The translations under genes were made by a program, and so were the position numbers. Of a DNA stretch of 64,000 nt, positions 18,547 through 23,893 are shown in pieces. Position 1 is the first letter of the stretch, and every line of letters starts with the position of its first letter. The notes under the pieces are model-generated. The model had not been told where the DNA came from and did no database searches. It saw only the letters and a program-made list of their open reading frames with translations. Source of the stretch: Fibrobacter sp. UWR2 (GTDB lineage: Bacteria > Fibrobacterota > Fibrobacteria > Fibrobacterales > Fibrobacteraceae); NCBI RefSeq assembly GCF_002210285.1, contig NZ_MWQE01000010.1:1-64000 (forward strand), given 5' to 3'.

Positions 18547-19923
18547 ATGAACAGCAACGTAGAAAACAGAATCCACGAGAATTTTCCTAAATACATCGAC
18601 GCGCTGAAGCAACTCGTACGCATTCCTTCCATCAGTTTCGACAATTTTGACCAGAAGTTCGTGATGGATAGCGCAGAAGCCGTAAAGGCGATGTTTGCCA
18701 AAGCGGGCTATACCAACATCCAGTTCCTGCTCCCGCCCAGCGGAAGGCCTACCGTCTATGCCGAAAGCCTTACCTCGCCCGACAAGCCCACGATACTCCT
18801 GTACGCCCACCACGACGTACAGCCCCCGATGCGCGAGGCCTTGTGGAACAGCGCTCCATTTGAACCCGAGACCCGCGGGGACAGGCTCTACGGGCGCGGA
18901 ACCGCCGACGACAAGGCGGGCATCATCACGCACATTGCCGCAGCGCAACAGGTGCGCGAACTGCTCGGCGACAAGGGGCCGAATCTGAAATTCATCATCG
19001 AGGGCGAAGAGGAATCCGGCAGTGCCGGGTTTGCCGAAATTCTCGAAAAGCATGCAGAACTCCTCAAGTGCGACGCGGTGATTGTCGCCGACCTCGGAAA
19101 CTTCGCGAAGGGTGTACCCTCCATCACGACGACACTGCGCGGGATGAGCGCCGTAAACGTGACTCTTCGGAGCACGAAGGCGCCCCTCCATTCCGGAAGC
19201 TGGTCCGGCCCGCTCCCCGACCCGGCACAGGCACTCTGCCGCATGATAGCATCGCTTGCCGATGCCGACGGAAAAATTCTCATCCCGAATTTCGAAGACG
19301 GGCTCGTGCCGCCTACCGCAGAAGAACTTGCATCTTACCGCAGTCTCGGTTACAGCGAGAAAACTTTCCGCTGCGAAAGCGGCGTCTTGGATAAAGTAAG
19401 TCTTACTGTTCCCGAAGGGGAAATCCTCGAATCGCTCTGGCGCAGGCCTTCCATCGTGGTAACCACGATGGAAGTGGGCAGCCGGACCAACGCGGGCAAC
19501 GTCTTGCAGGATTGCGCCTACGCCCGCATCGGCATCCGGCTGGCCCCCGGCATGAATGCCGACGCCTGCGCCGAAAAACTCGAGAAGTTCCTGCGCGATC
19601 AAACCCCGAACGGGCTCGAGATTTCAATCGACATCGAAGACGGAGCAAACCCGTTCGTGACAGACATCGCCCACCCCTTCTTCAAGAAGATGAGTGAAGC
19701 CATGAAGGAAGCCTACAAGACCGAGCCGAAATTCATCGGTTGCGGGGCAAGCATTCCCGGCGCAGAGCTTTTCCGCAAGACCTTCGGCGATATTCCCATC
19801 TTGCTCACCGGCCTCGAAGACCCGGAATGTGCGGCCCACGGCGAAAACGAAAGCCTCTACCTCCCCGATTTCGAGGCTGGCATTATTGCCGAGACGCTGT
19901 TCTTTATGTCGCTGGCAGATTAG
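18547..19923 (+). CDS. M20 family dipeptidase
   Basis: About 458 residues from the ATG at 18547, chosen because a GAGG ribosome site lies 11 bases upstream; an ATG at 18532 is also open. Zinc-peptidase motifs: YAHHDVQPP, GRGTADDKAG and EGEEESGS, the pattern of the M20 dipeptidase/ArgE-DapE superfamily, followed by a dimerisation domain and a final active-site His region (GCGASIPGAELF...AAHGENES). Cytoplasmic hydrolysis of dipeptides or acylated amino acids. Divergent from pyrD with 36 bases between start codons. It is followed by the first hairpin element. Confidence 0.9.
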   Translation: MNSNVENRIHENFPKYIDALKQLVRIPSISFDNFDQKFVMDSAEAVKAMFAKAGYTNIQFLLPPSGRPTVYAESLTSPDKPTILLYAHHDVQPPMREALWNSAPFEPETRGDRLYGRGTADDKAGIITHIAAAQQVRELLGDKGPNLKFIIEGEEESGSAGFAEILEKHAELLKCDAVIVADLGNFAKGVPSITTTLRGMSAVNVTLRSTKAPLHSGSWSGPLPDPAQALCRMIASLADADGKILIPNFEDGLVPPTAEELASYRSLGYSEKTFRCESGVLDKVSLTVPEGEILESLWRRPSIVVTTMEVGSRTNAGNVLQDCAYARIGIRLAPGMNADACAEKLEKFLRDQTPNGLEISIDIEDGANPFVTDIAHPFFKKMSEAMKEAYKTEPKFIGCGASIPGAELFRKTFGDIPILLTGLEDPECAAHGENESLYLPDFEAGIIAETLFFMSLAD

Positions 19924-19972
19924 CGAGCAAACGGGCGTCAATCGGCAAAAAGCAGGCCATTTTTCGCCTTCC

Positions 19973-20171
19973 TTACGGACTAAATCGCACTCAAGTCGAT
20001 TTTAGTCCGTAATTTTTCGAACAAATTAACACAAAGTCACTAAAAAAAACGGGCAAACGGCCCACTTTTCATTAAAATTTGGCTCCAAAATGGTCAAAAC
20101 ATGCACTTTTTATTGTATACAAGCTAATTTTTTACGGACTAAATGGGGGCCCCATAGTTTTTAGTCTGTAA
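19973..20171. repeat. Paired-hairpin element, copy 1
   Basis: A 199-base element in the gene-free stretch 19924-20255. It begins and ends with 40-base units, each a 12-base arm, a 16-base spacer and the complementary 12-base arm. Unit A: TTACGGACTAAA 19973-19984 with TTTAGTCCGTAA 20001-20012. Unit B: TTACGGACTAAA 20132-20143 with TTTAGTCTGTAA 20160-20171, with an inner ATGGGG/CCCCAT stem. The outer ends of the whole element are also complementary. It starts 50 bases after the M20 stop and ends 84 bases before the sirtuin gene. No target-site duplication is evident. Confidence 0.85.
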
Positions 20172-20241
20172 CATGCCCCATTTTCGACATAGAAAAGCAT
20201 GCTAGACCGCTACAGGCAGTACCCCCCGCACAAAGCATTGC

Positions 20242-20247
20242 TATATT
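20242..20247 (+). promoter_or_regulatory. Candidate promoter element TATATT, start-proximal
   Basis: TATATT followed by 8 bases and the ATG of the sirtuin gene at 20256; no ribosome site between them. Confidence 0.45.
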
Positions 20248-20255
20248 AAAAATGT

Positions 20256-20945
20256 ATGGAAAAGAAACTGGTTGTACTGACGGGCGCAGGAATTAGCGCT
20301 GAATCCGGGCTCCGCACCTTCCGCGGCAACGACGGGATGTGGGAACACGAGAACATCGAGGACGTATGCACGCCCGGAGCACTCAGACGCGACCCGAAGC
20401 GCGTCATGGACTTCTACAACTTCTTGCGCAAGGGGCTTCCCGAACACAAGCCGAATGCCGCACATATCGCCCTCGCCGAACTCGAGAAGCGCCTGGGCGA
20501 CCGTTTCTTGCTCGTCACGCAGAACGTAGACGACCTGCATGAACGTGCCGGCAGCAAGCGCATACTCCATATGCATGGCGACCTGATGAAGCTCCGCTGC
20601 ATGAAGGACGAACGCCACGAATTCATGTTCAACGGCGAAGAGACGCTTGAAACCAAGTGCCCGTTCTGTGGAGCCGGCACGCGCCCCGACATCGTATTCT
20701 TCGAAGAAGTTCCGCTGTACATGGACCTGATCCAGGATGCACTCCGCAACTGCGACGAGTTCGTCTACATCGGCACGAGCAGCGTGGTCTATCCCGCCGC
20801 CGGCTTCAAGAACTTCGCCAAACGCTTCGGCGCAAAGGTAACTTGCCTCAACCTCGAAATTCCGGCTCACGACCCGGATACCGACGTGTTCGTGCAGGGA
20901 AAAGCGACCGAAATCGTGCCCAAGTGGTGCGAACAGTTTAAATAA
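20256..20945 (+). CDS. cobB: NAD-dependent protein deacylase (sirtuin, CobB-like)
   Basis: 229 residues. Rossmann motif GAGISAESG (10-18), TQNVDDLH (89-95), catalytic His in HMHG (His107) and Cys residues for zinc (Cys115, then CPFC) place it in the Sir2 family close to E. coli CobB, class III. It removes acyl groups from lysine using NAD. The class III acyl-pocket Tyr is kept (Tyr54 in FYNFLRK), but the position three residues later, Arg in CobB, is Leu57, with Arg at 58. This may alter preference between acetyl and dicarboxylic acyl groups. It lies between the two hairpin elements with mqnE. Confidence 0.9.
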   Translation: MEKKLVVLTGAGISAESGLRTFRGNDGMWEHENIEDVCTPGALRRDPKRVMDFYNFLRKGLPEHKPNAAHIALAELEKRLGDRFLLVTQNVDDLHERAGSKRILHMHGDLMKLRCMKDERHEFMFNGEETLETKCPFCGAGTRPDIVFFEEVPLYMDLIQDALRNCDEFVYIGTSSVVYPAAGFKNFAKRFGAKVTCLNLEIPAHDPDTDVFVQGKATEIVPKWCEQFK

Positions 20946-20980
20946 TACGGGCATAGCGCCCGAATGTTAGTTTGTACAAA

Positions 20981-22021
20981 ATGCCGCGACTTAGCGAATC
21001 CGAAGCTTTAGACCTGTTTTTAAACGCCCCGCTAGACGAACTTTGCGCACGCGCAAATGCCGAGAAGGAACGTAGGCACGGGAAATCCGTGTACTGGGTG
21101 AACAACCGCCAGATCAACTACACGAACGTCTGCGTTTTGCACTGCAAGTTCTGCGCCTTCTCGAAAATCAAGAAGGACAGCCCGACCGCATACGACTGGG
21201 ATTACGATACCATTCGGAACAAGGCCGCAGAAGCGATTGCCGGCGGAGCGCGGGAACTGCACATCGTAGGCGGGCTCCACCCGGACCATCCCTTCGATTA
21301 CTACATCGAAATGTTGCGCAAACTGCGCATAGAATTCCCGAAGGTGAACCTGAAGGCCTTTACCGCGGTAGAGATTTGCCACTTCGCGAAAATCTCGGGC
21401 CAGACGCCCCTGCAGATCATGACCACGCTCAAGGAAGCGGGCCTGGACGCGCTGCCCGGCGGAGGCGCGGAAATACTCGTGCAGAGCGTGCGCGACCAGA
21501 TTTGCCCCGGCAAGGAGACCGGCGAGGAATGGCTCGACGTGCACCGCGCCGCACACAAAATCGGAATTCCGACTAACGCCACCATGCTTTTCGGGCATAT
21601 CGAAAAACCCGAGGACCGCATCGCCCACATGCGCATGCTGCGCGACCTGCAGGACGAGGCTCCCGGATTCTTCGCGTTCATCCCGCTCGTGTACCACCCG
21701 GAGCACAACGCGCTACACAAGATCGTCCCGAACATCACGAGCGAAGAAGACATACTGCGCACGGTCGCCGTCGCGCGCCTATTCCTGGACAACTTCCCGC
21801 ATATCAAGGCCTACTGGATTCAGATGGGCATCGAGACCGCGATGAAGGCGCTACACGCCGGAGCCTCCGACCTGGACGGCACGATTATCGAGGAAAAGAT
21901 TACGCACGCTGCCGGAGCCACCGTACCCGTGGGCATGAGCCCCGAACGCATGAAGACTCTCATTACGAACGAAGGCCTTATCCCCGTCGAGCGTGACGCA
22001 TTGTACGAGAGATTTTCCTAG
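20981..22021 (+). CDS. mqnE: Aminofutalosine synthase MqnE (radical SAM)
   Basis: About 346 residues from the ATG at 20981 (a TTG three codons upstream is also open). The radical-SAM cluster CxxxCxxC is Cys51, Cys55, Cys58 (CVLHCKFC), followed by KAFTAVEI and LPGGGAEI and a NATMLFGHIE block that match MqnE rather than the later enzyme MqnC. MqnE joins 3-enolpyruvylbenzoate to adenosine, giving aminofutalosine in the futalosine route to menaquinone, used in fumarate respiration. No ribosome site is evident. It is 35 bases after cobB and likely co-transcribed. Confidence 0.92.
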   Translation: MPRLSESEALDLFLNAPLDELCARANAEKERRHGKSVYWVNNRQINYTNVCVLHCKFCAFSKIKKDSPTAYDWDYDTIRNKAAEAIAGGARELHIVGGLHPDHPFDYYIEMLRKLRIEFPKVNLKAFTAVEICHFAKISGQTPLQIMTTLKEAGLDALPGGGAEILVQSVRDQICPGKETGEEWLDVHRAAHKIGIPTNATMLFGHIEKPEDRIAHMRMLRDLQDEAPGFFAFIPLVYHPEHNALHKIVPNITSEEDILRTVAVARLFLDNFPHIKAYWIQMGIETAMKALHAGASDLDGTIIEEKITHAAGATVPVGMSPERMKTLITNEGLIPVERDALYERFS

Positions 22022-22048
22022 CAATTTCCAAGCGTTTTTTTTTGAAAA

Positions 22049-22245
22049 TTACAGACTAAAGCAGCACAATGCATCATTTAGTCCGTAAAATTTTGCATAA
22101 ACTAACAAAATTAACGTCAAAAAGCGGCATTTTGTATTCAGAAAAGACAAATTCCACTTTTTTTATGTTTAAAACCGTCAAAAACACAACATACAACATA
22201 ATAAATTACAGACTAAACAACACAGAATGCACTTTTAGTCCGTAA
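22049..22245. repeat. Paired-hairpin element, copy 2
   Basis: A 197-base element between mqnE and the NfeD gene with the same plan as the copy at 19973. Unit C: TTACAGACTAAA 22049-22060 with TTTAGTCCGTAA 22077-22088. Unit D: TTACAGACTAAA 22206-22217 with TTTAGTCCGTAA 22234-22245. Both spacers are 16 bases. The 117 bases between units are AT-rich and share scattered matches with copy 1 (for example ATACAA..TAAT near the right end). It starts 27 bases after the mqnE stop and ends 61 bases before the next gene. Confidence 0.85.
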
Positions 22246-22294
22246 AAAGCGCATAATTCACGACAAATCCATCATTTTTTCTACAAAAACTTGA

Positions 22295-22300
22295 TATATT
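22295..22300 (+). promoter_or_regulatory. Candidate promoter element TATATT, start-proximal
   Basis: TATATT followed by 6 bases (AGGGGT) and the ATG at 22307. The AGGGG is too close to the ATG to act as a normal ribosome site. Confidence 0.45.
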
Positions 22301-22306
22301 AGGGGT

Positions 22307-23893
22307 ATGAAGTCTATGATACGCATATTATCCGCGCTCCTGTTGCTCGCCGCGTTCTCCTTCGCCAACACGGCGCAGGATTCCACCCCCATCGAGAAGG
22401 CCATCACCGACAATTCCGCCACCACGGCAACGGAAGTCGCAGTCCCCAAGCAAGGCAAGAAGCACGCCGTCTGGATTAAGCTCGAAGGCGATGTGGACCC
22501 CAGCATGTATGAATTCTGCGCACGTGCAATCAGCGAGGCCATCAAGGAAAATCCGGAATACATCGTATTTGAAATCAACACCTTCGGTGGTCGCCTCGAT
22601 GCCGCATTCGACCTGGTCGACACCATCATGGCAGTGAAAGGGCCGACAACTGTCGCTCTCGTAAAGAAAAAAGCCATCAGCGCAGGTAGCCTCATCGCGC
22701 TCGCCTGCAAAAAGCTCTACATGCTCGAAGCCACGACTATCGGCGACTGCGCTCCCATCGTGCAGAATGGCGACGGCACTCCGCAAATCGTCGGCGAAAA
22801 GATCCAGTCACCCCTGCGCGCCAAGTTCAGAAATCTTGCCCAGCAGAACGGCTATCCCGAGCTGCTCAGTTCTGCCTTCGTAACGCCCGAACTTGAAGTC
22901 CTCGAACTCCAGCGCACGCTCGACAAGGGCAAAAAGACCGAGCGCGACACGACGCTCATCATTGAAGGCAAAAAGTTCGCCGTTATGAGCAAGGAAGAAA
23001 AGGAATTCTGGGGCGCCCCCAAGATCCTCGTCAAGGAAGGCGAACTCCTGACCATGACCGACAAGGAAGCCATTGATCTCGGATTCTCGCAGGGTACATT
23101 CAAGAACCGCGAAGATTTCGAGACATCGCTCGCCATCGAAAGCCGCAGCGAAGTCGAAACAACCCTCGGCGAAGAAATCGCTGCTGCCATCGCAGCAATT
23201 TCGGGCATCCTGCTCATTCTCGGGTTCGGCGCCCTCTACATCGAATTCAAGACTCCCGGCTTCGGACTATTCGGGATTATCGGCATTATCCTTGTCGCCA
23301 TCGTGTTCCTCGGGCAGTTCGCCCCGCAACTCGACGGCTACATTCCGGCGATACTCCTCGTCATCGGCGTGGCCCTGTTCCTCGTAGAAATCTTCGTAAT
23401 GCCCGGGACATTCCTATTCGGCATCGGCGGTATCATCTGCATGATAATCGCACTCGCGATGTCATTCTCGCCTGCAGAAATGCCCGAGTTTGTTCCCGAG
23501 ACAGTGGAAACGACCTTCGACGCCACCCCATGGCTACTAGGGTTGCTCTACATGCTGACATGTGCGGCGATTGCGCTTGTATTCCCCATTGCCGCCAGCA
23601 AGTACCTTATCCCGCTTTTGCCGGAAGGCTGGACGCCCATGCTCAAGACGGACCTCGAGACGGCCGCCTCCCCCACGGAATCCGTGCAGGAAGTTTCTGT
23701 CGGTGATGAGGGTGTGGCAAAGACATTCCTCCGCCCGGTAGGCCAGGCAAGCTTCACCATGCCCGACGGCAGCACCAAGCTGTTCGACGTGCAGACGCAT
23801 GGCGAAATCATCGAATCCGGCACGAGCGTGAAAGTCACAGCCGTGCAGGAAGGCCACATCTGGGTGGGAGCCTCCAAACCGATAGAAGAATGA
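22307..23893 (+). CDS. NfeD-family membrane serine protease (ClpP-class)
   Basis: 528 residues: signal peptide or first membrane segment (about 5-20), a ClpP/SDH-type protease domain with INTFGGRLDAAFDL (about 90-103) and the nucleophile Ser125 in KAISAGSLIA, then several membrane segments (about 290-385 and 410-430) and a C-terminal OB-like NfeD soluble domain (about 455-528). The layout is that of long NfeD proteins that work with stomatin/flotillin-type proteins; floA lies nearby at 27563. Probably membrane quality control. Its last four bases (ATGA) form the start of the next gene. Confidence 0.88.
   Translation: MKSMIRILSALLLLAAFSFANTAQDSTPIEKAITDNSATTATEVAVPKQGKKHAVWIKLEGDVDPSMYEFCARAISEAIKENPEYIVFEINTFGGRLDAAFDLVDTIMAVKGPTTVALVKKKAISAGSLIALACKKLYMLEATTIGDCAPIVQNGDGTPQIVGEKIQSPLRAKFRNLAQQNGYPELLSSAFVTPELEVLELQRTLDKGKKTERDTTLIIEGKKFAVMSKEEKEFWGAPKILVKEGELLTMTDKEAIDLGFSQGTFKNREDFETSLAIESRSEVETTLGEEIAAAIAAISGILLILGFGALYIEFKTPGFGLFGIIGIILVAIVFLGQFAPQLDGYIPAILLVIGVALFLVEIFVMPGTFLFGIGGIICMIIALAMSFSPAEMPEFVPETVETTFDATPWLLGLLYMLTCAAIALVFPIAASKYLIPLLPEGWTPMLKTDLETAASPTESVQEVSVGDEGVAKTFLRPVGQASFTMPDGSTKLFDVQTHGEIIESGTSVKVTAVQEGHIWVGASKPIEE

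Follow-up and report, generated by a model that had tools for sequence, protein, structure and literature searches.

Results

Paired palindromic elements flank cobB and an mqnE-like gene

In the window, by which we mean the whole 64-kb stretch of DNA that was analysed, cobB, encoding a SIR2-family deacetylase (20256..20945, plus strand; PF02146, E 7.7e-41), is followed by a gene for an mqnE-like radical SAM protein with a CofH/MqnC C-terminal region (20984..22021, plus strand; PF19288 and PF04055), both being neighbours outside the repeat system described here. Element A (19973..20171, 199 bp) lies between an M20 peptidase gene and cobB, and element B (22049..22245, 197 bp) between the mqnE-like gene and an NfeD-type gene, and each contains two palindrome units, neither elements nor units being assigned a strand. 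Element A is composed of unit 1 (TTACGGACTAAA-16-TTTAGTCCGTAA, 19973..20012), an interior assigned to the minus strand with ACAAATTA-like motifs adjoining the units (20013..20131), and unit 2 (TTACGGACTAAA-16-TTTAGTCTGTAA, 20132..20171). Element B carries unit 3 (22049..22088) and unit 4 (22206..22245), both of the form TTACAGACTAAA-16-TTTAGTCCGTAA.

All four units are 40-bp palindromes on a 12-16-12 plan, paired into two elements of ~198 bp. Start-to-start spacings of 159 (element A) and 157 (element B) bore out the first-pass annotation, which had placed two pairs 157-159 bases apart, one before cobB and one after the mqnE-like gene. With at most one mismatch, the arm TTACRGACTAAA occurs eight times in the window against 0.26 expected, and none of 100 shuffles reached eight, so that the positions and geometry originally reported (four units, 12-base arms, a constant 16-base gap) proved exact and far above chance. 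Only two other palindromes of unit grade were found in the 64 kb. The supposed terminal repeats of each element are the outer arms of its two palindromes.

The order M20 peptidase, cobB, mqnE-like gene is kept in seven relatives, where the gap before cobB measures 36-102 bp (332 bp in the window) and the gap after the mqnE-like gene, where readable, 43-181 bp (285 bp in the window). Since the gaps are far shorter in the relatives, elements A and B were most likely gained in this lineage, and the empty sites that the first-pass annotation had proposed to look for are represented by these short orthologous gaps. The nearest syntenic relatives are 84-90% identical at the sites, too diverged for a junction or a target-site duplication to be read. 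Some elements are common to species at orthologous sites (L029/L034 and L022/L043), which suggests that movement is slow and that elements are also inherited.

Copies of the unit across the host genome

The assembly containing the window (G000; 3.28 Mb, 20 contigs) holds 22 exact units of the 12-16-12 pattern and 37 with at most three mismatches, compared with 0 for a reversed-pattern control. These 37 units group into ~16 intergenic arrays of one to four units each. When the gap between arms was left free at 12-20, it was exactly 16 in 33 of 35 core matches, with one of 15 and one of 17. Full two-unit elements measure 197-209 bp, and several of them (contigs C13 and C2) have CGACAG/CTGTCG at their outer ends and TTACGG/CCGTAA at their inner ends. 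The interiors are homologous between copies, including that of element A (z ~4-6 when a window element is compared and as high as 33 between other copies), in agreement with the common ancestry that had been suspected for the inner sequences. The spacer had been described as variable; genome-wide it is not free sequence, its centre showing a GGGG consensus (6.9 bits vs 4.1 ± 0.26 for the null), although this is lacking or weak in the four window units.

Other features of the elements were also observed. The spacer centre looks like AAAA/TTTT in two other genomes (G048 and G049), as opposed to GGGG in the host, and such a lineage-specific dyad centre may be a point of cutting or bending. A motif resembling a relaxed arm (TTAGTTTGTMTGTA / TAATTTGTATGTAA) adjoins both units in element interiors (e.g. 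L029:4112-4240), and its keeping one direction beside both gives the element a polarity; a similar motif lies between units in an array of a spirochaete MAG (L040). The ends of contigs C6 (L027) and C3 (L016, start) overlap within an array, so these contigs are probably adjacent and the assembly was broken at the repeat.

Arrays of the same plan adjoin a gene for a 286-aa protein

On both sides of one gene of the host genome (G000:C3:435-1292, minus strand, 286 aa), arrays of the same unit with identical spacers were found; this partner gene has no other homologue in G000. Homologues are present in 41 of 61 Fibrobacter genomes, at one to seven each, and are mostly 34-68% identical. In nearly all of the first 30 homologue loci, palindromes of the same geometry adjoin the gene, and the arm sequence differs by lineage (TTACATACTAAA, GGGGCGTATAAA, CGTACCTATAAA, ATGCATATAAA, TTACGTACTAAA, GGTCATACTTTT, TTGTGGGTAAA, TATGCTACTAAA, AATAGAACTTTT and others), with the spacer fixed at 15-18 bp across arm families. 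Over 90 homologue loci, the 700 bp upstream of the gene contain a mean of 2.13 palindromes, compared with 0.05 in dinucleotide shuffles, 0.12 in the gene body and a background of 0.04 per 700 bp in unrelated Fibrobacter loci. At least two palindromes occur in the upstream 700 bp at 58 of the 90 loci, and at least two units on at least one side of the gene at 65 of 90 by tally, while in about a quarter of the loci neither side reaches two palindromes at the threshold that was applied. Arrays on both sides of the gene were seen at L050 (the host locus), L071, L085, L132 and L137.

Approximately 70 bp upstream of the ATG of the host nuclease-like gene lies a hairpin of another kind (AGCGTTGATAC-14-GTATCAGCGCT, ~-19 kcal/mol) followed by TTTTTTT, which resembles an attenuator or a terminator within the 5' leader; it is common to L050, L051, L052 and L054, and L061 has another hairpin and T-run at the corresponding leader position. 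Two-unit elements of ~201 bp stand in tandem upstream of the gene, three in G048:C4 (L087) and two in G075:C9 (L086). Up to seven homologue matches per genome were found in G024, G053 and G073, and because those that were read differ in their arms, one cell seems to house several systems that are independent of one another.

Where checked, scattered units carry the arm version of their own genome's gene

The exact 40-bp pattern was found on ten further contigs, so copies of the dispersed element, which the first-pass annotation had proposed to search for, exist both in the host genome and in relatives. Six of the ten contigs are labelled as other taxa, and each of those six genomes, which the exact pattern alone had brought to light, contains a homologue, whose adjoining arms equal those of the scattered units in four (G077, TACGGACT; G079, TTTACGGACTA; G080, ACGTACTAAA; G081, GTCCGACTA). 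In two Fibrobacter genomes, G048 and G075, the gene arrays carry ATAGGACTAAA with a spacer of 17, and nearly all core matches (29 and 10, respectively, gene-side units counted) also have a spacer of 17, with arms identical to those of the gene where read. In G049, TGGCTGACTAAA with a spacer of 16 occurs on both sides of the gene and in scattered units. Units without a detected cognate gene were found in two draft genomes, G044 (2 units) and G061 (9 units). Arms are more alike the closer their proteins are in identity, the matches increasing from 5 to 10.7 of 11. Every protein lineage comes with an arm sequence and a spacer length of its own, and, where checked, scattered elements carry the version of their own genome's gene.

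The association extends beyond Fibrobacter, with homologues flanked by arrays of the same plan also in Clostridia and in one spirochaete MAG (L040, subject to a binning caveat). In the class of a Ruminococcaceae MAG, 10 of 148 genomes have homologues (E below 1e-20), and clear arrays were seen at several of its loci (L199, L209, L210, L212, L213 and L217). The array and flank of L049, in a MAG labelled Treponema, match the Fibrobacter carB locus (L019); given this common flank, L049 is probably a misbinned Fibrobacter contig and was left out of the spirochaete evidence. A viral origin was rejected, neither units nor a homologue being found in IMG/VR; relatives did turn up on two short, unverified 'Bacteriophage sp.' contigs, which have no arrays. 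A plasmid link was likewise set aside, the plasmid matches covering just the nuclease domain of ATPases.

The partner protein has a predicted nuclease-like C-terminal half

Searches of Pfam, NCBIfam and PHROG returned no family for the 286-aa protein, and a PDB sequence search gave chance-level matches only. PADLOC models of PDC-S68 match 58 of 58 family members, via the last ~120 model positions only (~1100-1219). In an AF2 model of the protein (pLDDT 90.9), residues 165-284, the C-terminal half, are predicted to form a PD-(D/E)XK/Vsr-like domain, for which VIA-align gave the catalytic domain of I-Bth0305I as the best match (3r3p; Z 8.5, 91 aligned, rmsd 2.8), followed by Bax1 (Z 7.9), VRR_NUC (6.8) and Vsr (6.5), a fold Z below about 8 not being diagnostic. 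Foldseek placed Bax1 first, weakly. Among 58 diverse members, no variation was seen at R175-S-K-S-E179, E225 or H226, and hardly any at D210. The N-terminal half, modelled as a helix, a beta hairpin and a long helix, is presumably the DNA-reading and pairing part. Members of the family are stand-alone proteins of about 270-330 aa with their own N-terminal half.

Units are phased on the DNA helix

Neighbouring units in the host genome lie 74, 85, 95-96, 136, 157-159 or 167-169 bp apart, centre to centre. Circular concentration of these spacings peaks at 10.4-10.5 bp with a phase near zero (R 0.945), and 100 distinct spacings from many arm families gave R = 0.90 at 10.5 bp, against a largest jitter-null value of 0.39, so adjacent units are spaced by whole DNA turns. 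At arm position 5, the choice of G or A is independent on the two arms within G000 (GG 18, AG 8, GA 7, AA 2), and hence no compensatory change is seen inside its units. Helical phasing and independent arm changes speak for a protein that acts on double-stranded DNA. The constant geometry had been attributed to either a bound protein or a folded RNA; phasing favours the former, and the absence of compensatory change within units speaks against the latter. The arms do vary between lineages yet remain palindromic, so the co-variation that had been proposed as a check is seen between lineages and not inside the units of this genome.

Discussion

The scattered arrays are, in our assessment, probably satellite copies of putative binding sites for a cognate, trans-acting nuclease-like protein, forming a selfish system in the manner of REPIN/RAYT. 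Two subunits of the protein would recognise both 12-bp arms of one 40-bp unit as a dimer, and with units whole helical turns apart, neighbouring complexes would sit on one face of the DNA and could join into a larger nucleoprotein complex. Its most likely use would be selfish, with the protein cutting or nicking its own units and thereby carrying arrays into further intergenic positions; the nuclease-like gene may in addition be regulated by the array that precedes it. The units and arrays, their phasing, the association with the gene, the lineage-specific arms, the match of gene arms to dispersed arms and the empty sites are direct observations; binding, dimer formation, catalysis, mobilisation and autoregulation by the protein are what we infer from them, strong sequence evidence underlying the first steps, the binding and joining of units.

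The main rival, which we regard as unlikely, is that the protein acts chiefly as a regulator or DNA-architecture protein, with its own arrays as operators, the dispersed arrays as a regulon or chromosome-organising sites spread by ordinary duplication, and the nuclease fold as a relic or a minor activity. It would account for arrays lying mostly upstream of the gene's start codon and for helical phasing typical of cooperative repressors and looping, and elements can indeed be old and stable. However, the catalytic-type residues are invariant in 58 diverse members, entire 198-209-bp elements with related interiors are scattered, and at least some dispersed elements lie between convergent genes (L023 and L029) and so cannot be promoters. 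Nor do the genes adjoining arrays have a common function: an operator or regulon of one pathway was rejected on these functionally unrelated neighbours, and so was a link to sirtuin genes, suggestive at first from three arrays (window, L044 and L048).

A role in defence or self-recognition, in which the chromosomal arrays would retain the nuclease or serve it as a mark of self while it attacks invading DNA, and fast arm change would reflect an arms race, appears improbable. Paralogues are numerous and diverse, and the C-terminal domain of every member examined matches PDC-S68, a PADLOC candidate-defence family, but this match is restricted to the nuclease module, since there the domain ends a ~1200-aa protein, and dispersed whole elements would be left unexplained. 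Least credible of all is an RNA role, in which the units would be transcribed into stem-loops that regulate, terminate transcription or stabilise mRNA. Although every unit could form a hairpin with a stem of 12 bp and a loop of 16 nt, and several units are 3' of genes, a search of Rfam with 19800-22500 gave no match up to E 1, the units have no U-tract of their own, and the 10.5 bp phasing and lack of compensatory change within G000 units stand against it.

Taking the satellite reading further, we lean, with less assurance, towards a second, independent solution of the REPIN/RAYT type, in which a PD-(D/E)XK/Vsr-fold protein binds phased, lineage-specific palindrome arrays and spreads them intergenically, its target specificity having diversified on many occasions within Fibrobacterota and Clostridia and perhaps also in Spirochaetota. 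Ten or more different arm sequences were seen, each with a matched protein, which makes target recognition by an uncharacterised nuclease directly testable, and, if the reading is true, the pairs constitute a natural series of matched proteins and DNA sites. The persistence of short repeats in genomes could then be studied in a second system, and the findings suggest a function for a hypothetical protein of gut and rumen bacteria.

Comparison with known systems

To our knowledge, the RAYT transposase is the only partner of bacterial short palindromic repeats that is well described, and RAYT transposases are thought to spread REPINs to new sites. REP and REPIN sequences go with RAYT, the REP-associated tyrosine transposase (PMC2817692, PMC3116915), and a REP is defined by a GT(A/G)G head adjoining an imperfect hairpin (PMC2817692). 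The present elements resemble them in being extragenic palindromes that are often paired, in a gene flanked by the repeats, in dispersed copies that match the cognate gene, and in arm and protein changing together. In contrast, the units here are long full palindromes with a fixed 15-18-bp spacer and helical phase, they end in TTACGG or CGACAG and have no GT(A/G)G head, and their partner protein is PD-(D/E)XK/Vsr-like, belonging to an unrelated nuclease-like family named in no curated library searched. A search for PF01797 (Y1_Tnp) found 0 in G000, the control being positive in 5 of 14 genomes, so membership of REP/RAYT was rejected for want of the cognate Y1 (HUH) tyrosine transposase; with the hallmark enzyme of REPIN/RAYT missing and the units built differently, we did not file the system there. 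The BIMEs of enterobacteria are likewise mosaic clusters of extragenic palindromes, but they are REP units tied to RAYT (PMC2817692), an enzyme of a type absent here.

MITEs, too, are dispersed and non-coding, measure only ~200 bp and have symmetrical ends, but no parent transposase with matching ends was found in the present case, and it is entire palindrome arrays that stand on either side of the parent gene. A homing enzyme is located within its one target or next to it, whereas the arrays presumed to be recognised in our system occur around the gene and, by the dozen, in intergenic DNA, with lineage-specific arms. The likeness to I-Bth0305I, an EDxHD/Vsr-like free-standing homing endonuclease that is reported to dimerise on an exceptionally long target, close to 60 bp (PMC3943268), is one of fold only in the nuclease domain, together with a selfish spread by cutting that would apply here as well. 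PDC-S68 shares the C-terminal nuclease domain, but its models are ~1200 aa with no full-length match, as opposed to the stand-alone proteins described above. The open-access papers searched yielded no description of the system, and, as in the first-pass annotation, we found no named element with this unit plan. Collectively, because the 12-base arms match, genome by genome, the arrays flanking a nuclease-like gene, the elements look like a REP-like repeat system whose enzyme is unrelated to any known REP transposase.
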